Shown: piece by piece, positions 8,220 to 41,967 of the stretch
Position numbering within the stretch: position 1 is the first letter of the stretch
Layout: every line of letters begins with the position of its first letter
Assembly: GCA_944388775.1 (NCBI GenBank)
Contig: CALXKC010000004.1
Span: 1-52,295 of the forward strand
Direction: 5' to 3'
From: an uncultured Clostridia bacterium
Lineage (GTDB): Bacteria > Bacillota > Clostridia > TANB77 > CAG-508
DNA: 52,295 nucleotides
Notes under the pieces: model-generated
Databases searched by the model: none
What the model was told of the DNA's origin: nothing
The model's input: the letters and a program-made list of their open reading frames with translations, nothing else
Made by a program: the position numbers and the translations under genes

Positions 8220-8395
8220 GCAAAAAAAATAATAAAAATATTTTTTAATCTCGGCTACCTTTCGTGACGTAAAGAACTTCTAAAAATAAAACAATAGGTC
8301 CTCCCGAAAACAGGACCCACCATTGCTTTATTTTAAGAAGTTCTTTTACTACTACAGTCGCATTCGATTTTAAAAAAATATTTTTATTATTTAGT
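8220..8395 (+). repeat. 175-bp nested palindrome after the Lon gene
   Basis: An outer arm of about 22 bp (AATAATAAAAATATTTTTTAA type) encloses a second near-perfect stem (GTAAAGAACTTCT with AGAAGTTCTTTTAC) and an apical 25-nt segment beginning GGTCCTCC and ending CCCACC. The apical segment has the same length and ends as the motif in the hairpins at 16206, 21330 and 25664, so this may be a divergent member of that family. It lies between convergent genes and may also terminate both. Confidence 0.6.
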
Positions 8396-8425
8396 TTTAT
8401 CTGTATTTTTTCTATTTAATATTAT

Positions 8426-10091: not shown

Positions 10092-10123
10092 AAAGCTCAC
10101 ACATAATTTGTGTGAGTTTTTTG
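10092..10123 (+). terminator. terminator of the YvlD-like gene
   Basis: CTCACACA (10096-10103) pairs with TGTGTGAG (10109-10116), followed by TTTTTTG, just after the stop codon. Confidence 0.8.
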
Positions 10124-10156
10124 TGACTTCCAATTTAATTAAACTATACTTTATAA

Positions 10157-10192
10157 AAAGAAACCTAGCTAAATAATAAAGTTAGGTTTCTT
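10157..10192 (-). terminator. terminator of the secreted-protein gene
   Basis: AAGAAACCTA(G/A)CT arms around an AT-rich loop; on the minus strand the stem is followed by TTTTTATAA. It lies 63 bp past the stop of the gene at 10255. Confidence 0.65.
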
Positions 10193-10254
10193 CTTATAAA
10201 GTTTTAATGAAAACTTTTACTTATTGATGGAATGCATGTTATTAATTAATAATA

Positions 10255-10668
10255 TTAAAGAGTTGCAATATCCATTCCAAATGCTGCCCAAACACTACCA
10301 TTTACCACCTTCAATGTATGGTAGCCAGCAGTTAGTGACCAAATTGTTACTCCTGTAGAATAGCCATTACTTGTAGCCACTTTTGCCCCATCAATGTAAA
10401 TGGTAACTGGTGCTGCTTGGTCACCTTCTTGTGCTGACGATGTGTAAACAACTTTAACAGCTAATGGTGCATTTGTATGAAATGTTTTTGACATTGAAGC
10501 ATATGGTTTCAGTTCTCCTGATAAATAAGTTACTTGAGTGGTTCTAGTCTCATGACTAGTATTGTCAGCAGCATTAGCTTTAGTCGCTGGAATAACCGTT
10601 CCGATTATACAGCAAAGTAAAGCCAATACAAAGAATTTCCGTCCTATATTGCTTATTGTTTTTTTCAT
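10255..10668 (-). CDS. secreted protein of unknown function, atypical composition
   Basis: A 137-residue protein with a classic signal peptide (KK at residues 2-3, hydrophobic core about 12-27, cleavage after ATKANA). The mature 100 residues look beta-rich (VTIYIDGAKVATSNGYSTG, WSLTAGYHTLKVV), as in small carbohydrate-binding or adhesion domains, but I recognise no family. Its composition is richer in G+C than its neighbours and it uses CGG for Arg10, which long housekeeping genes here avoid. Together with the adjacent insertion sequence this suggests acquisition. AGGAGG precedes the ATG. Confidence 0.75.
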   Translation of the reverse strand: MKKTISNIGRKFFVLALLCCIIGTVIPATKANAADNTSHETRTTQVTYLSGELKPYASMSKTFHTNAPLAVKVVYTSSAQEGDQAAPVTIYIDGAKVATSNGYSTGVTIWSLTAGYHTLKVVNGSVWAAFGMDIATL

Positions 10669-10700
10669 AGTCCATCCTCCTATAAATGCATTCCATCAAT

Positions 10701-10730
10701 ATTATATAGTAGGTTTTCCCACTATGAGTA
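10701..10730 (-). promoter_or_regulatory. promoter -10 overlapping a dyad
   Basis: TATAAT at 10706-10701 abuts the dyad ATAGTAGG-TTTT-CCCACTAT (10706-10725, one mismatch). No consensus -35 is seen, so activation or repression by a factor binding the dyad is plausible. Confidence 0.4.
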
Positions 10731-10765
10731 ATATTATATTCTTATTTTTTTTATTTGTCAATTAT

Positions 10766-10791
10766 TTTTCCAAAAATTAACATTGCCTTTT
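10766..10791. repeat. left copy of a 26-bp direct repeat flanking the insertion sequence
   Basis: TTTTCCAAAAATTAACATTG plus CCTTTT is identical to positions 11956-11981. The two copies touch both ends of the element exactly, as target-site duplications do. Confidence 0.85.
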
Positions 10792-11955
10792 GTTGTTGTG
10801 TCAATGATGTGAAACAAAATTATATAAAAATTTAATCTATATAATTAAATTGCACAATTAACCATACCATATTCTTCTAATTTAGCTCTTTTCTCTTTTG
10901 GTGTTAAATATCCTAATACTGCCATTGGTATATCATTTGACCTCTTAACATATCTTTTCCCTTGTTCTCTTAAATCTTCTAAACTATAGAACTTTAGATA
11001 ACTATAAAATCTTTCGTTATCATTTCTATGACTTCTTTCTACCTTTCCATTATGCTCTGGCGTCCTTGGTTGTATCTTATGATGCTTTATTCCTAACTCC
11101 TTTAACAATTTATCTAATGGATGTTCTTTCTTTATATCTGCTCTATTATATGTGAATTCTACCCCATTATCTGTTTGTATTTCTTTTGGTTTATATCCTA
11201 AATATCTTATTACTCTCTTTACGAAATCTACTGTATTTGTTGGCGTATGCTCTTCATACCAATATAAATATCTCTCCCTTGTTGCTTCATCTATATATGT
11301 ATATTGGTAAAACCTTTTATCTTCTGATAAGTTACTACTCTTACATTCATTTGGTACGTATTTTACGTCCATTTGTCCTTTTTCTCCTACATTCTCTGGT
11401 GTATGATATTTTTTATTATGTTTCTTCTTTGATGTGTTCTTTATATTCATTCCTTTGTAGAATTTTATGTTTAACCTTCTCATTACTCTATATAATGCTG
11501 TTATTGTTCTTGTATATCCTTTTTCTCTTTTTAGTTTTACCCATAACTCACATAATGTTATTCTTGGATTTCTTCTTACATAATTTCTTATCCTTCTTAT
11601 TTCTTTATTTGTATGTGCATTTGGATGTCTTGTTTTTGGTTTATGTGATTTATCTGTTATACTTTCTATTGTTCCATCATATTCTTTATTCCATCTCCAT
11701 AATGAAACCCTTGATATATGGTACTTTCTACACACATAATTTATATCCCCACAATTTCTATACATCTCTACTGCATATTTTCTTGTATTAATATCATGTG
11801 GTAGGTATCTTTTTTTATTTTTTTCTGTTATAATATTATTCATAAGTGATTCAAATCTCCTTTATATAATTTTTGTTTCGCAACTTAATTATATATGATT
11901 TGAATCACTTATTCAATTTTTATTATTTTTGTTTCACATCTATTGTAACACTACA
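10792..11955 (-). mobile_element. IS481-like insertion sequence, 1164 bp
   Basis: The element is bounded by inverted repeats that both begin TGT and share GATGTGAAACAAAA at the same distance from the tip (positions 16-29 inward). It holds a single intact transposase. Perfect 26-bp direct repeats flank it. TGT ends and a single-ORF DDE transposase fit the IS481 family, but that family usually makes shorter duplications. Confidence 0.85.
10845..11843 (-). CDS. IS481-family DDE transposase
   Basis: A 332-residue transposase. Residues 20-60 form a helix-turn-helix (YAVEMYRNCGDINYVCRKYH, then VSLWRW), with a second HTH at about 75-125. The integrase-core catalytic domain has Asp159 (GQMDVKYV), Asp225 (QTDNGVEF) and the glutamate in EHNGKVERSHR (E269 most likely). 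No frameshift or stop is present, so it may be active. It cuts and rejoins DNA at the element ends. The start at 11843 lies inside the right inverted-repeat region. Confidence 0.93.
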   Translation of the reverse strand: MNNIITEKNKKRYLPHDINTRKYAVEMYRNCGDINYVCRKYHISRVSLWRWNKEYDGTIESITDKSHKPKTRHPNAHTNKEIRRIRNYVRRNPRITLCELWVKLKREKGYTRTITALYRVMRRLNIKFYKGMNIKNTSKKKHNKKYHTPENVGEKGQMDVKYVPNECKSSNLSEDKRFYQYTYIDEATRERYLYWYEEHTPTNTVDFVKRVIRYLGYKPKEIQTDNGVEFTYNRADIKKEHPLDKLLKELGIKHHKIQPRTPEHNGKVERSHRNDNERFYSYLKFYSLEDLREQGKRYVKRSNDIPMAVLGYLTPKEKRAKLEEYGMVNCAI

Positions 11956-11981
11956 TTTTCCAAAAATTAACATTGCCTTTT
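11956..11981. repeat. right copy of the 26-bp direct repeat
   Basis: Identical to 10766-10791, immediately outside the right end of the insertion sequence. Confidence 0.85.
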
Positions 11982-12317
11982 TAATATTCTATTTCTTGTA
12001 TTGTATCTTTTTCTTTTTTTATTTACTCCATGTGCCACACAATTGTCGTTACATACTGTATGTAACCACTGTTAATTTCCACTAATTCTTACTCTTGCTT
12101 CATGTGAATCTACTAGTTTAGCTTTTCCTTTTCTTTTTTACTTTTCTTTGCCACTTCTTTTGTTTTATATTTAAAATTACTCCTTTGATTAATACTGTTT
12201 TATTATCTGTTATTTTTTTATAAATTTTAAACATTTATCTATTACTACATATTTCTTATTAACAAACATACTATCAAAAGCTTTTAAATCATTTCTATAA
12301 TGTGATAAATTTTTGAA

Positions 12318-12503
12318 TTATTTTAAAAACATACTTTTAATTTTTTGTCCTACTAATTTCATTTCTGTTTTTTCTCTACAATTATAAATTACTTTTTTAA
12401 ATTCGTCTGCTGAAGAAGATCTACTCGAATTTTAACTGTTTCTATTCAATCTCGATTTCAAATCTACAATTATGCTATCTTTTTGTTTCATCTGTTTTTC
12501 CAC
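12318..12503 (-). pseudogene. remnant of an IS66-family transposase
   Basis: Translation of the minus strand gives LKSRLNRNS, a stop, then NSSRSSSADEFKKVI and REKTEMKLVGQK. This matches the IS66 TnpC pattern of a coiled coil ending LNKNSSNSS, PSSxDxFKK, then NLREKSGKKPGGQKGHKG. The in-frame stop and loss of GHKG show decay. The rest of 11982-12814 is AT-rich with frequent stops in all frames, probably eroded mobile DNA. I see no intact gene there. Confidence 0.6.
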
Positions 12504-12814
12504 GTGCTCTTTTTGTATTCATTGCTATATCCTATTTTTTTATTTCTTTATATTCTTCGATTCTGTTTTTCTTGCTCAATTTATTTAATTACTCGTTCTG
12601 TATCTGCAATTTGTTGAGGTATATTTTTTAGTCTCTAAATCTTTTATTATATGCATCCAAAAAAGTTTATAACATCCATATTTTATTACTATTAAGGACA
12701 CTGTAACATTCTGTGGATAATTAATTTCTATTTTTTCATTTTGTGAATAACTCTTTTTCTCTCTGAATAGTCACTTATTTTCAAAATAAATAATATGTTC
12801 ACTTTTATATATAC

Positions 12815-15481
12815 TTAATTTTCAAACATTTTTATAATTCCTATCAAATTTTCATATTTAATCCTATTTTTAGAAATACTCATAGAGCCAAATACAATTA
12901 TAAATACAAATATTACACATAATGCTATGTTTTTCCAAGAAATATACATACTATACAAATAGTTATTATTTATTTCATATTCAATTTTATATATTAAAAT
13001 AAATATCAGTATACCTAATGTAATTCCAATAAGAAGTGCCTTTATACAATAATAAAAACATTCAAATCTAAGCATTTTATTTAATTGTCTTTTGGTCATT
13101 CCTAACGATTTCAAAATTGCAAAATTTCTTTTTCGTAATTGTATATTAGAATATATAATATTAAATATATTTAATATGCAAGATATCGCAATTAATCCAA
13201 TAAAACTATATAGAAACATTCCCATTATTAATCTTTTATTATTATTTGATTCTATTTGCTTTTGATAGTTTATACCTGATATTTCAGTTCTAGCATATTC
13301 ATTTATATACTCATCAATACCTGTTGGGTTACTAGAATTAATATATAATCTAATATCACTATTATTATCAAATCCATTATTTGTATTAAAAAAATCTCTT
13401 TGCTCAATTGTCATTTCATGGTTGATATTGTTTAAGGTATTTTTATTTACAAATATAGCTACTGGTGAATCATATAAATCAGTAATACTAGAATAATTAA
13501 AATATCCATAAAAGTCATCTTTCACTAATTTTATTTTTAAATCAATATTTTTTATGGCAGAATAATTATAATCAATATCTTTATCTATTACATCATTTAT
13601 TTCTTCATCTTGGAATTGTATGTCTTGATTTCCTAAATTAGTTATTGAAAGTGCTATATTATCTCCTTCTTTAAAATTTGTTACATGAAAATTTGCATAT
13701 TGTGGCAAATTAATATTATTCAATAATATACATTCTCCATCCTCTAATTTTTCAATTCCACAATTATCTAGAAAGTTGTTGTATATTTCATCTTCTATAA
13801 TTGTAAATATAGTACATGTAAGTAACGGTATTTCTGGATTACTTTCGTTATAAAATATATATTGATTACTTCCTTCTGTGTTCCAAAATTCTAATAATTC
13901 TTTATTTATATTCTCTAACTTTACATTTAAATTTAAAGTAGTTATATTTTCTCTCGTGTAATAATTGTTTATTAAATTTCTATCTTTTAAATTTTTAATT
14001 AATTCATCACTATTTTGCAAATTATTTACATATGCCAAGTAATTATAATTTTTATTTTCATTATATGCACGCGCATAAATATTTCCTATATAATTACTAC
14101 AAACTATAAACAAGACTATACAAATTACTAAAGACATTATTATTGATGAACTATTACCTCTACTCCTTTTTATGTATTTATACCCCAAAGATGATTCATA
14201 ACTCAATATTCTAGATAATAATAGTTTTTTATTTGTTTTCTTATTACTCACCTGTATTTCATTTATTTCTTTTATCGCTTCTATCGGTGAAATTTTGCTT
14301 ATTTTTACAACAGGTATAAGTGCTGATATGAAAACAGTTATAAATATAAATAATATGTCAGTTCCTAAATAGTTTAAAGAAAAATACATTTTTATAGGAA
14401 CTGTATTTCCTGCTATAAATATTGACTGGTCTTGTAATATCAAATTTGATACTAAGTTTTCAATTTTATATAATATGATATTTACTATTCCAACGCTAAT
14501 CAAAATAGAAATAGGTACGGCTATCAAAGTTATTATAAACATTTCTTTAAATATAATTTTTCTTATTTGCTTTTTTGTGTAACCTATACTACGTAATGTT
14601 CCAAATTCTTTTTTTCTAGAATTTAATGTTATACTTAATGTTGTAAAAATCAGTATAAATGATGCTATTACAATAATTAATATTAATGTTATTCCTACTA
14701 GGTAGAAAGAATTTTTAAATTCAGAATTAGATACTAAAGAGTAATTTAATAATTCTTCATTATATGAAATATTATCACTTGATATATTTAATGTTTTTGT
14801 TATCTCTTCTGCAGTATCATAAACATTTTGTATATGTGTGTTTGATACATATACATCTACTATGCTTTCATTAGTATTTTCACTTTCGTCCATATATGTT
14901 ATTGCACCATGTATACTTTCAGTAATAGAACTTTTGTCATATTTGCTTGAATTCAATATTCCAACAATAGTATATTCTTTTGAAAATTCTCCACTTTCAA
15001 ATATAAATTTGTCACCTATTTCATATGTTTCTTTAGCAAGATTTATATCTTCACTATCTATATTCATAGTAGATATAGCTATTTCATTTGAATTTTCAGG
15101 TAATCTTCCCGCTTTTATATTAGTTGCTAATAAATTCTGCATGCTATTTTCATCATATGAATATAATTCTACATAAATTGATGTAACACCAGTTGATGGA
15201 ATATTCATTAACCCTATATTATGTGTTTTTGAAATTTCTTTGATTTGATTAAAATTATTTAGTTGTTTGTAATCTTTATATGTAATATTTGATATTTTTG
15301 TATCCCAATTGTCTTTATGTCGTACAGAATTTATTAAATATTGTTGATAGCTAGATAAAAGTAGTAATATTGAAAATATTGCAACATTAACTATTACTAT
15401 CCCTAATAAAATTGATAATGTTCTTTTCTTATTTTTTAGTAAATTTCTACTAATTATTTTATTTAATACTTTAATTTGAAT
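12815..15481 (-). CDS. FtsX/MacB-type ABC transporter permease (non-ATG start)
   Basis: The reading frame stays open to a TAG just above 15481 and encodes 888 residues, but the first ATG is at 15208, in the middle of an extracytoplasmic domain. The 91 upstream codons are clearly coding: QIKVLNKIISRNLLKNKKRT and a first membrane helix (about residues 22-42), as in every FtsX-type permease. The only start available is ATT (15481 or 15475), 3-9 bp after AAAAGGGG. Further helices lie at about 260-400, 446-466 and 770-880. It works with the ATPase 30 bp upstream. Substrate unknown; peptides or lipoproteins are typical for the class. Confidence 0.85.
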   Translation of the reverse strand: MQIKVLNKIISRNLLKNKKRTLSILLGIVIVNVAIFSILLLLSSYQQYLINSVRHKDNWDTKISNITYKDYKQLNNFNQIKEISKTHNIGLMNIPSTGVTSIYVELYSYDENSMQNLLATNIKAGRLPENSNEIAISTMNIDSEDINLAKETYEIGDKFIFESGEFSKEYTIVGILNSSKYDKSSITESIHGAITYMDESENTNESIVDVYVSNTHIQNVYDTAEEITKTLNISSDNISYNEELLNYSLVSNSEFKNSFYLVGITLILIIVIASFILIFTTLSITLNSRKKEFGTLRSIGYTKKQIRKIIFKEMFIITLIAVPISILISVGIVNIILYKIENLVSNLILQDQSIFIAGNTVPIKMYFSLNYLGTDILFIFITVFISALIPVVKISKISPIEAIKEINEIQVSNKKTNKKLLLSRILSYESSLGYKYIKRSRGNSSSIIMSLVICIVLFIVCSNYIGNIYARAYNENKNYNYLAYVNNLQNSDELIKNLKDRNLINNYYTRENITTLNLNVKLENINKELLEFWNTEGSNQYIFYNESNPEIPLLTCTIFTIIEDEIYNNFLDNCGIEKLEDGECILLNNINLPQYANFHVTNFKEGDNIALSITNLGNQDIQFQDEEINDVIDKDIDYNYSAIKNIDLKIKLVKDDFYGYFNYSSITDLYDSPVAIFVNKNTLNNINHEMTIEQRDFFNTNNGFDNNSDIRLYINSSNPTGIDEYINEYARTEISGINYQKQIESNNNKRLIMGMFLYSFIGLIAISCILNIFNIIYSNIQLRKRNFAILKSLGMTKRQLNKMLRFECFYYCIKALLIGITLGILIFILIYKIEYEINNNYLYSMYISWKNIALCVIFVFIIVFGSMSISKNRIKYENLIGIIKMFEN

Positions 15482-15511
15482 CTACCCCTTTTATCATATG
15501 TTTCTATGTAT

Positions 15512-16183
15512 CTATGTTTCAGAAATGATTTTTCCATCTTTTAATTCTATTATTCTATCTGATTGTTTTGCTATTTCTAAATTATGTGTTACTATTACTA
15601 AAGTTTGTTTCAATTTCTTATTTAGGTTTTTTAGAAGATTAATAATGTTTTCAGAATTTTTACTATCTAGATTTCCAGTAGGTTCATCAGCTAATATAAT
15701 TGAAGGAGAATATATTAAACTTCTTCCAATTGCTACTCTTTGTTGTTGTCCTCCTGATAATTGATTTGGCAAAAAGTCTCTTCTGTCCTTTATATCTAAT
15801 ATTTCTAGGATATTATCTAATCTTTTTTTATTAACATTTTTATGGTCTAGCAAAATTGGCAATGTTATATTTTCTTCAACAGTTAATGTCGGAATTAAAT
15901 TGTAGAACTGATATATTATTCCTATTTTACTTCGTCTTATTCCTGCTAATTGATTATCTGTTAAATTTGCCAAATTAATGTTTTCTAACCATACTTGTCC
16001 CGAAGTTGGTTTGTCTATCCCTCCTAAAATATGTAATAATGTTGACTTTCCAGAACCTGATGCACCAATGATTGAAATAAATTCTCCTTGATTTATTGTG
16101 AATGAAATATTATCTAACGCTTTGACTGAATTATTGTTTGAGCCATAAATTTTTGAAATGTTTTCCACTTTTAAAATTTCCAT
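15512..16183 (-). CDS. ABC transporter ATP-binding protein (LolD/MacB type)
   Basis: A 223-residue ATPase with Walker A GASGSGKST (about 38-46), signature LSGGQQQRVAIGRSL, Walker B ILADEPTGNLDS and the switch His in VTHN. It powers the FtsX-type permease encoded directly downstream (30 bp). No two-component system or resistance gene is adjacent, so the usual bacitracin/bacteriocin-export setting is not shown. TAAGGAG precedes the ATG. Confidence 0.92.
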   Translation of the reverse strand: MEILKVENISKIYGSNNNSVKALDNISFTINQGEFISIIGASGSGKSTLLHILGGIDKPTSGQVWLENINLANLTDNQLAGIRRSKIGIIYQFYNLIPTLTVEENITLPILLDHKNVNKKRLDNILEILDIKDRRDFLPNQLSGGQQQRVAIGRSLIYSPSIILADEPTGNLDSKNSENIINLLKNLNKKLKQTLVIVTHNLEIAKQSDRIIELKDGKIISET

Positions 16184-16205
16184 ATATGTTCTCCTTAGTA
16201 TCTAT

Positions 16206-16282
16206 TAAGAAACTATTGATTATAAATGATTGGTGGATATCCTTAAAAAGGAAACCGATTTTTTATAATCAATAGTTTCTTA
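16206..16282 (-). repeat. long hairpin with conserved apical motif (member 1)
   Basis: Perfect 21-bp inverted repeats (16206-16226 and 16262-16282) flank a core that on the minus strand starts GGTTTCC and ends AAGGATATCCACC. It lies 15 bp past the stop of the acyltransferase gene. The same core, with different stems, recurs at 21330 and 25664. Confidence 0.85.
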
Positions 16283-16297
16283 TAAATATTAGTATTT

Positions 16298-18614: not shown

Positions 18615-20093
18615 ATGGAAAATACTAGTTTGTATCAAGACATCGCAAAAAGAACAGATGGTGATATTTATGTAGGGGTGGTAGGTCCTGTTCGTACTGG
18701 TAAATCTACTTTTATAAAGAAGTTTATGGATTTATTAGTAATTCCAAACATAGAAAATAACTACAAAAAAGAACGTGCAAAAGATGAATTGCCACAAAGT
18801 GCTGGTGGCAAAACAATAATGACAACAGAGCCTAAATTTGTTCCAAATGAGGCTGTTGAAATAACTTTAGATAATAATCTAAAATTTAGAACTAGATTAG
18901 TTGACTGTGTTGGTTATTTAGTTGATAACGCTATTGGTTATTTAGAAGATGATATGCCAAGAATGGTTAAAACACCTTGGTCTGATGAGGAAATTCCTTT
19001 TGAAACTGCTGCTGAAATTGGAACTAAAAAAGTTATTGAAGAACATTCAACTATTGGGATTTTGATAACAACTGATGGTAGCATTACAGATATTCCAAGA
19101 GATGATTATATTAAGGCTGAGGAAAGAGTTGTATCTGAATTAAAGGCATTAAACAAACCTTTTGTAATTTTGCTAAATTCATATTCTCCTGAATCTGATT
19201 ATGCAAAAGAATTGGCCCAAAACTTAAGCGAAAAATATCAAACAACAGTTATTCCAATTAATTGTGAGTATCTAACAATTGATGATATTAATGAAATATT
19301 TTCAAAAATTTTATATGAATTTCCAGCTAGTCAAATTCGTATAAAATTTCCTAAATGGATTGACGGTTTAGATTTTAGCCACCCATTAAAGGCTGAATTA
19401 TATAAAGAAATTAAAGATGCTTTTTCAGATATTAGAGTTTTGAAAGATGTTTCTAATTGTGTAAATAAAATATCAACTACTCAAATAATTTCACAAACTA
19501 AAATATCTAATATCCAACTAGGTTCTGGTAATGTAAATATTGATATTACTCTAAAAGAAGAATTATTTTATCAAGTGTTATCAGAAATTACAGAAGTTCC
19601 TGTTTCTAATGAAGGTGACTTATTTAGCATAATTTCAGAACTTTCTAAAACCAAGAAAAAATATGACAGAATATCTTATGCATTGGATGAAGTTGAACGT
19701 AAGGGCTATGGTATTGTTACTCCTTCAATTGATGATTTAGTTTTAGAAGAACCTGAGATGATTAAACAAGGTTCAAGGTTTGGTGTAAAATTAAAAGCAA
19801 CTGCTCCTTCTATTCATTTAATAAAAACAAATGTAGAAACTGAAGTTTCACCTATTGTCGGCTCAGAAAAGCAATCAGAAGAATTGGTGAATTACTTATT
19901 ATCTGAATTTGAAAGTAATCCAAAAGAAATTTGGGAATCTAATATCTTTGGAAAGAGTTTGCATGAACTTGTAAATGAAGGCTTACAAACTAAACTTGCT
20001 AAAATGCCAGAAGAAGCACAAATCAAACTTCAAGAGACTTTAGAGAGAATTGTTAATGAAGGTAGTGGTGGATTAATTTGTATTATCCTTTAG
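18615..20093 (+). CDS. spoIVA: stage IV sporulation protein A
   Basis: A 492-residue coat morphogenetic ATPase. Walker A is GPVRTGKS (residues 24-31), followed by the SpoIVA-specific stretches LPQSAGGKTIMTTEPKFVP and VDCVGYLVDNAIGY. The C-terminus ends GGLICIIL, the short tail that binds SpoVM and the forespore membrane. Made in the mother cell, SpoIVA polymerises into the basal layer of the spore coat. Full length. AAGGAGG lies 9 bp before the ATG. I could not identify a convincing sigma-E promoter by eye. This gene is strong evidence of an endospore former. Confidence 0.97.
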   Translation: MENTSLYQDIAKRTDGDIYVGVVGPVRTGKSTFIKKFMDLLVIPNIENNYKKERAKDELPQSAGGKTIMTTEPKFVPNEAVEITLDNNLKFRTRLVDCVGYLVDNAIGYLEDDMPRMVKTPWSDEEIPFETAAEIGTKKVIEEHSTIGILITTDGSITDIPRDDYIKAEERVVSELKALNKPFVILLNSYSPESDYAKELAQNLSEKYQTTVIPINCEYLTIDDINEIFSKILYEFPASQIRIKFPKWIDGLDFSHPLKAELYKEIKDAFSDIRVLKDVSNCVNKISTTQIISQTKISNIQLGSGNVNIDITLKEELFYQVLSEITEVPVSNEGDLFSIISELSKTKKKYDRISYALDEVERKGYGIVTPSIDDLVLEEPEMIKQGSRFGVKLKATAPSIHLIKTNVETEVSPIVGSEKQSEELVNYLLSEFESNPKEIWESNIFGKSLHELVNEGLQTKLAKMPEEAQIKLQETLERIVNEGSGGLICIIL

Positions 20094-20163
20094 GAGGGAT
20101 TTAGGGGACGGTCCTAAAAGTCCCTCCTTTTAGGGATTTTTAGGACCGTCCCCCTAGTCCCTG
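20094..20163. repeat. REP-like palindrome between spoIVA and the transglutaminase gene
   Basis: A GGGGACGGTCCTAAAA arm is repeated in inverse order around CCCTCC. It starts at the base after the spoIVA stop and forms the last 17 codons and the stop of the convergent transglutaminase gene. Confidence 0.8.
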
Positions 20164-21277
20164 ATAATGTAGGATAACTAAAGACTTTTCCACCCTCTGT
20201 AAATTGTCCACTTGGTGTGTGGTCTTGCATAAATTCACTTGAGCCTTTTAAGAAATATCTATATCTTGAACTTTGGCTAACATATCCAGTTGATGATACT
20301 GGATCATCCCATGTACAATCTATCGCATACCAATTTCCATTTAATTGTACATAATTCCAAGCATGGTTTTCTGTTTGTCCTTGTGAATTTGTTCCTGTTC
20401 CAATAACTAATGTACAAGGTATTCCTAATTCATCCATTAGATATTTAAAACTTCTTGCATAACCTTCACAAACCGCTCTCCCATTTACTAATGCTCCATA
20501 AACATTGTATATATTACTTTGAGATACTGTTGTATCATATTCTATATTTTCTACTAAATAATCATGTACCATTTTTATATCATCATATACATTTCCACTT
20601 CTATTTTGTAATATTTGATTTTTTACTTGTTCTATTTGACTAATTGCATTTTCTACTTGTGCTTGTGATGTAAATTCATCTATAAAATAATTATTTTCAT
20701 TACCGTTATTTATATACACATTATATGTAATACTATTTCCAAGAGTTGTAGTTTCAATATTTAGATACATTTTATTTGGACTCAAATAAAATATCTCCGG
20801 ATTATCATATGTATATGCTTCAATTGCGGATTGATAATATTTTCCTAACAAATCACTACCATTTGCTTGATTTAATATATCTGAAAAGCTATTTCCTAGG
20901 TCAATTCTATAAGTTCCACTTTTCATGTTTTCTTTATTACTTTCAAATGCTTTATAAATTGTTTGTGATGGTTCTTCTAGTTGATTATAAAAATATTTGT
21001 CTACTGTTACATTACTATAATCAACATTGACAGCAGTACTTTGCCCGCTATCTTGTATTTGGTCAAATGGATTTTCTATGATTTCTGGTGTTTTTATATC
21101 TTGGTCTATTGTATTTCTATTTTGATTTTCAGAAATTACTGTTTGCACACCTTCAACTTCTGCCCCTGCTTGAAGATCTTTAAATTCTTGCCAAAAAATC
21201 ATTCCGAAAAGTGCAAATACAGCTATTATCAAAATTGTTACAATAGATATAATAAATGTTGCAAGTCTACTTCTCAT
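20114..21277 (-). CDS. membrane-anchored transglutaminase-like protein
   Basis: A 387-residue protein with an N-terminal membrane anchor (about residues 7-28), a variable linker, and a transglutaminase/protease-like core in the C-terminal third. The Cys-His-Asp triad is visible in GRAVCEGYARSF, ENHAWNYV and AIDCTWDDP. It most likely acts outside the membrane on protein or peptidoglycan-linked peptides. The final residues (LSGTRGTVLKIPKRRDF) are encoded by a REP-like palindrome and are probably not part of the fold. Between spoIVA and ger genes, so a spore-envelope role is possible. Confidence 0.83.
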   Translation of the reverse strand: MRSRLATFIISIVTILIIAVFALFGMIFWQEFKDLQAGAEVEGVQTVISENQNRNTIDQDIKTPEIIENPFDQIQDSGQSTAVNVDYSNVTVDKYFYNQLEEPSQTIYKAFESNKENMKSGTYRIDLGNSFSDILNQANGSDLLGKYYQSAIEAYTYDNPEIFYLSPNKMYLNIETTTLGNSITYNVYINNGNENNYFIDEFTSQAQVENAISQIEQVKNQILQNRSGNVYDDIKMVHDYLVENIEYDTTVSQSNIYNVYGALVNGRAVCEGYARSFKYLMDELGIPCTLVIGTGTNSQGQTENHAWNYVQLNGNWYAIDCTWDDPVSSTGYVSQSSRYRYFLKGSSEFMQDHTPSGQFTEGGKVFSYPTLSGTRGTVLKIPKRRDF

Positions 21278-21329
21278 ATCTTTTGTTCCCTTCTTTTTTT
21301 GTTATCATTGATTTTTATAATATCTATTG

Positions 21330-21404
21330 GTTGATAATTGATTTCAAAAAAATTGGTGGATATCCTTAAAAGGGGGACCAATTTTTTTGAAATCAATTAT
21401 CAAC
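21330..21404 (-). repeat. long hairpin with conserved apical motif (member 2)
   Basis: Perfect 27-bp inverted repeats (21330-21356 and 21378-21404). The minus-strand core reads GGTCCCCCTTTT then AAGGATATCCACC. It lies in the divergent space between the transglutaminase and gerAA genes, so it cannot be a simple terminator of either. Confidence 0.85.
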
Positions 21405-21523
21405 ATAAATACTATTTAAAATCACCTTTCTATTTTATTATATCATTTTTTTATAACAATTAATAGTATATTTTCCTATATTTTTGAAATACTAATTAAA
21501 AATATATTTTTAAGGAAGTGGCT

Positions 21524-25663: not shown

Positions 25664-25735
25664 TTCTAAAAATTGTTTCAAAAAATCGGTCCCCCTTTTA
25701 AGGATATCCACCAATTTTTTGAAATCAATTTTTAG
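25664..25735 (+). repeat. long hairpin with conserved apical motif (member 3)
   Basis: Inverted arms 25664-25689 and 25709-25735 (one bulge, one T-C change) enclose the core GGTCCCCCTTTT AAGGATATCCACC in sense orientation, 13 bp after the gerAC stop codon. Confidence 0.85.
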
Positions 25736-25770
25736 ACTTATAAACTTAATCTTAATGTTTGGAGGTTTTT

Positions 25771-41806: not shown

Positions 41807-41905
41807 TTACCCCATCCTTCCTTACTTATACCTTCTCTTTAATTCTACTTCCTTATTATAAATTTAATAACTAAATTATGCAAGTGTTTTTGAAAAGATG
41901 TCGCG

Positions 41906-41956
41906 TTGGGGACGTTTCTTAATGAGACAAAATGTCTCAAAAGGAAACGTCCCCAA
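41906..41956. repeat. 51-bp palindrome with GGGGAC head
   Basis: TTGGGGACGTTTC..GAGACA and its complement around AAA, almost perfect. It shares the GGGGAC head with the REP-like family but has a different body (TGAGACA). It lies between the flippase and pyrophosphatase genes. Confidence 0.7.
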
Positions 41957-41967
41957 TGAGACATTAA

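Follow-up and report, generated by a model that had tools for sequence, protein, structure and literature searches.

Hairpin repeats with a constant tip in an uncultured Clostridia bacterium as probable relics of an IS66-type MITE

Several bacterial MITEs have hairpin bodies, including RUP, BOX, and Correia/NEMIS, which are short, non-coding, intergenic, multi-copy, foldable, and moved in trans. The element described here is likewise short, non-coding, intergenic, multi-copy, and foldable, with putative mobilization in trans, but it differs from them in its parent family and in carrying locus-specific, covarying arms on a constant apex. With IS66-family insertion sequences (IS; PF03050) it shares GTTACTNNTCAG-type terminal inverted repeats (TIRs), 8-bp target duplications, and a 17-bp TIR match between a MITE of one related genome (G008) and an IS of another (G005); unlike these IS, it has no transposase gene, is only 140–205 bp long, and consists over its whole body of a hairpin. 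REP elements of the RAYT kind are also palindromic and intergenic, and in one genome (G091) the element is nested inside such palindromes, but it has DDE-type termini of its own, with duplications, and does not track the presence of RAYT. Finally, template switching between inverted repeats has been described to yield arm homogenization and spacer inversion (PMC8604942, PMC8794818). The quasipalindromes corrected in this way resemble the element in arm homogenization, exact indel repair, and loop inversion, whereas here it is a mobile element that shows them, in natural bacterial genomes and at several loci.

Hairpins of the window and their family membership

The window, a 52,295-nt stretch of DNA from an uncultured Clostridia bacterium with a 1.42-Mb draft genome (G000), contains the following features:

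8222..8397 (+): two-tier hairpin, judged to lie outside the family; apex motif at 8297–8321
12658..12774 (strand not assigned): decayed end of an IS66-type IS; 102 nt at 77% to an IS of G068 (E 6e-16)
16206..16282 (−): putative element relic; core at 16232–16256; arms of 29 nt at 90%
21313..21421 (−): putative element relic; core at 21355–21379; 45-nt arms, 82% complementary
25664..25736 (+): putative element relic; core at 25688–25712; arms of 21–23 nt at 83–86%

The 25-nt core reads GGTTTCCTTTTTAAGGATATCCACC in the 16206 hairpin and GGTCCCCCTTTTAAGGATATCCACC in the other two, and all three hairpins fold strongly and well beyond chance expectation (z-scores of −8.8, −10.4, and −6.9 for 16206, 21330, and 25664, respectively). 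The original prediction had described these three hairpins and their shared core, and it was borne out in coordinates, folds, and matches to a covariance model (R1). R1 answers the covariance-model search that the prediction had proposed; built from 15 sequences, none of them from G000, it recovers four copies in this genome (E 2.8e-13, 1.4e-11, 1.9e-8, and 5.1e-7), and a reversed-pattern control for the core gave no match in G000. The fourth copy lies on another contig (G000:C61:2463-2487) and retains a decayed internal-loop module. Further copies thus exist in G000 as well as in other genomes, a point on which the proposed family had depended. The inner arm and core of the window copies match those of full-length elements in G008, G075, and G212; no exact TIR or target duplication was found on the window copies themselves, the ends being decayed or lost. 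Judged from homology of body and core, they are best classified as relics without ends.

By contrast, the hairpin at 8222–8397, which had been taken for a divergent member (8220–8395), does not belong to the family. Its sequence is as originally read and its fold is strong (z −8.5), but the motif at 8297–8321 has no second copy at up to 3 mismatches in the 98 genus genomes, and in G075 the orthologue differs in apex and in build; in G068, a plain terminator-like hairpin occupies the orthologous place. The flanking genes of the window hairpin and its G075 orthologue (L175) are ~93% identical, and the arms and apex are almost wholly different, each hairpin being well paired, which represents an unusually fast palindrome turnover. 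Separately, REP-type palindromes, probably of the RAYT kind, occur in the window at 20081–20176 (GGGGACGGTCC) and 41898–41964 (GGGGACGTTTC).

Close relatives are 92–97% identical to the window over most of this region, and in them we found the empty sites by which the original prediction had proposed to assess mobility. At 21330, G075 has the copy, and G068, G002, and G062 lack it. A 6.1-kb segment (~10123–16290), with the 16206 copy at its right edge, is missing from G068, G075, G002, and G062; among its genes are those for an ABC transporter ATPase and for an FtsX/MacB-like permease, and the decayed IS66 end also lies within it. The 25664 copy, located 12 nt past the stop codon of a Ger(x)C family gene, is absent from G038 and G002, half deleted in G075, and present with an inverted core in G068, for which a pair of insertions in opposite orientations is a less likely source than an inversion.

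The intact element and its IS66 parentage

In related genomes, the intact element is a nested hairpin of 140–205 bp with the core at its tip. Its outer stem, the outermost part of which is formed by the terminal repeats (GTTACTNNTCAG..), leads through a conserved internal loop (CCTGTTTAACCG / CTGACGCGG) to an inner stem that is capped by the 25-nt core. Inverted-repeat ends such as GTTACTAGTCAGC or GTTACTGTTCAGACT were identified in G008, G075, G078, and G212, directly flanked by 8-bp duplications (e.g., AACTATTT, AAGGAAAA, TATAAATA, and AAAATTAT). GT[TA]AC-type TIRs bound 19 elements, including two full-length IS; in 12 of these elements (63%) the flanking bases match at 7 or more of 8 positions, and in 10 at all 8, compared with 0.9% of shuffled flank pairings that reach at least 7 of 8. 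In addition, near-identical copies occur at several sites in G008 with differing target duplications. No target duplication was identified in G091, in which the insertion boundaries lie inside REP palindromes.

Three full insertion sequences (1823, 1732, and 1672 bp) share this end type and code for IS66-family transposases, two of them with the Pfam domain PF03050 DDE_Tnp_IS66 (E 3.8e-23 and 1.6e-27). The IS of G052 and G068 have the same TIR type and perfect 8-bp duplications, and that of G005 (L266; target duplication ATAAAATC) has a 17-bp TIR, GTTACTGTTCAGACTAG, in common with the right end of a G008 MITE. Given the TIRs, the 8-bp duplications, and this 17-bp match, the element is a non-autonomous MITE of the IS66 type, which, together with the empty sites in sister genomes, supports one of the readings offered originally, that of a hairpin mobile element. 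Such ends suggest that IS66-family transposases of several related genomes would move the element in trans, leaving 8-bp target duplications, and the hairpins would need no function for the host. IS66 transposases were found in 5 of the 12 genomes that carry the element, as compared to 21 of 98 genomes overall, a contrast too slight to carry an argument, and none was detected in the G000 draft; draft assemblies often miss IS. The decayed IS end at 12658–12774, which terminates in the TIR-like GTGACTATTCAG (minus strand), suggests that IS66 elements were once present in G000.

The distribution of the element is patchy within the genus. At up to 3 mismatches, and with reversed-pattern controls near zero, the core was found in 10 of 98 genus genomes, including 33 copies of a variant, GGTACCCCCTTTAGGGATACCCACC, in G091. 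Matches to R1 extend to 12 of the 98, with 37 in G091 and 6 in G008 and with more divergent copies added in G052, G107, and G078. When 287 genomes of the order were searched for exact matches to the internal-loop module, 5 contained it, all from this genus, with no match in 44 other genera. Core matches in a named genome collection were all to MAGs of uncultured Clostridia, and the exact core had no match in a viral collection; the 30 matches of a gapped internal-loop pattern in the latter are at a roughly estimated chance level for the size of the collection and were set aside unread. Overall, this MITE family of the IS66 type is new as a family and ordinary in kind, and all carriers found here belong to a single genus of uncultured Clostridia. 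Separately, G078 contains some 75 TIR matches per strand, and two related elements in this genome (at L088 and L099) show a whole apex gained or lost, one having a large extra apical hairpin and the other being reduced to a bare perfect palindrome.

Changing arms, constant tip, and alternative explanations

The original prediction held that the stems are unrelated and that pairing, not sequence, is kept. The pairing stands; the stems, by contrast, are related in their inner 13–17 nt, with the consensus TTG(A)TTTCAAAAAAATT / AATTTTTTTGAAATCAA, which is common to the 21330, 25664, and C61 copies and to full-length elements elsewhere and appears in a diverged form in the 16206 copy. Only the outer part of the stem is locus-specific. 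In an alignment of 15 elements, 96% of cells pair, and changes in the arms are two-sided in 69 cells (transversion-type in 33) as opposed to one-sided in 5, a covariation that exceeds all shuffles. A single bulged T (TTG-TTTC / GAAATCAA) is also shared across the family, by copies of G000, G008, G075, and G212, and its repair can be followed at two loci: at 21330, G000 gained exactly the missing A and the G075 orthologue did not, and at 25664, a one-base insertion repaired the bulge in G068 and not in G000.

These two-sided changes and exact bulge repairs, together with the core inversion at 25664, lead us to infer template switching. During replication, template switching would copy one hairpin arm onto the other, so that the arms change yet stay complementary, and would now and then invert the loop. 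This offers the simplest explanation for a tip that stays constant on stems that change and yet always match themselves. Among seven elements of five genomes, identity is 97% in the core and 92–95% in the internal loop, as opposed to 68–76% in the inner arms and 53–54% in the outer arms, and such conservation of core and internal loop against drifting arms is not predicted by template switching alone. Tentatively, and with low confidence, we suggest that core and internal loop act as a recognition signal bound unpaired in folded single-stranded DNA (or RNA), with the arms free to drift if paired. Recognition of this kind would be by structure, and to our knowledge no substrate recognition by structure has been described for IS66 elements.

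The same conservation of core and internal loop, along with the pairing of 96% of cells, could also reflect selection on a DNA hairpin or cruciform bound by a transposase or host protein, which would then drive the stem covariation in place of template switching. We regard this as possible but rather unlikely, since the ratio of 5 one-sided to 69 two-sided cells, the exact one-base repairs, and the loop inversion typify template switching; the two processes are, moreover, not mutually exclusive. The pairing might instead come from outside the element, if the outer locus-specific stems were terminators or palindromes that existed beforehand and received the core hairpin at their centers. Copies within REP palindromes in G091 and one G068 MITE copy that lies between the arms of a GGGGACGGAG palindrome are consistent with this scenario. 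However, relatives without the element at L036 and L018 also lack these arms, and the outer stem of full-length elements is their own TIR region, making such an origin improbable. Insertion into terminators, tried at these two loci, found no support at either. As a side observation, L018 and L010 (both in G038) have the same core on perfect ~47-bp arms that hold GC-rich blocks, unlike each other and unlike MITE arms, and may be new stems from one template-switch event.

REP biology itself offers another possible route, in which the element would be of the REP type and a RAYT (Y1 transposase) would move it. The recognition hairpin would then be the core, which has CACC at its 3' end and so reads as GGTG plus hairpin on the opposite strand, a layout resembling that of REP elements. 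Of 29 tested genomes, 28 have RAYT-like Y1 genes, among them G000 with four matches, and most G091 copies lie inside GGGACCGGGT-type palindromes. The Y1 genes are, however, equally frequent in genomes with and without the element, and both the element's own termini and its 8-bp target duplications are as expected for a DDE transposase, so that mobilization by RAYT appears very improbable. In G091 itself (L031–L057), most of the 33 copies are within GGGACCGGGTAYTTTTTT / AAAAAARTACCCGGTCCC palindromes whose REP sequence varies by copy, a MITE hairpin nested within REP hairpins.

A structured RNA had been another reading of these hairpins, with core and internal loop conserved on a covarying stem at the 3' end of an mRNA or in a small RNA, possibly spread as a domesticated repeat. 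The strong folds in the window, covariation above all shuffles, a core and internal loop far better conserved than the arms, and the position of two window copies 12–15 nt past stop codons would all fit it. The initial observation, that three of four hairpins lie just past the stop codon of a co-oriented gene, is true of the window; it does not extend to the family, in which the upstream gene is co-oriented with 30 and opposed to 27 of 58 copies (downstream gene: 25 and 32), and none of the 58 lies inside an ORF. Such random orientation argues against a strand-specific RNA, as do the inverted core at one orthologous locus, the absence of copies at orthologous sites in close relatives, the restriction of carriers to just 12 of 98 genus genomes, and a stem covariation with almost no one-sided intermediates. 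In agreement with the original statement that no named motif was known to fit, the whole window had no Rfam match at the gathering threshold; at 20 related loci (E ≤ 5), the only element matches were to miRNA-precursor models far below their gathering scores, and none was credible. We rejected these as long-hairpin artifacts. Other Rfam matches, such as a near-threshold T-box in L011, fall outside the elements, and for a further candidate, the "skipping-rope" RNA motif, the literature searched contained no relevant paper. A structured RNA is therefore quite improbable, and the hairpins are most likely not strand-specific RNAs.

Taken together, the best explanation, and in our judgment a likely one, is that the window hairpins are relics of an IS66-type MITE moved in trans, with arms kept paired by template switching. 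What appeared to be an orphan RNA motif is thus accounted for as a mobile element, which cautions against taking strong stem covariation among intergenic repeats of bacteria as proof of a functional RNA. The contrast between a conserved core and loop and drifting arms is the remaining puzzle and the main interest of the family. With many copies, and with orthologues in species that are a few per cent apart, the family provides natural replicates, which could allow rates of template-switch repair and loop inversion to be measured against selection for pairing.
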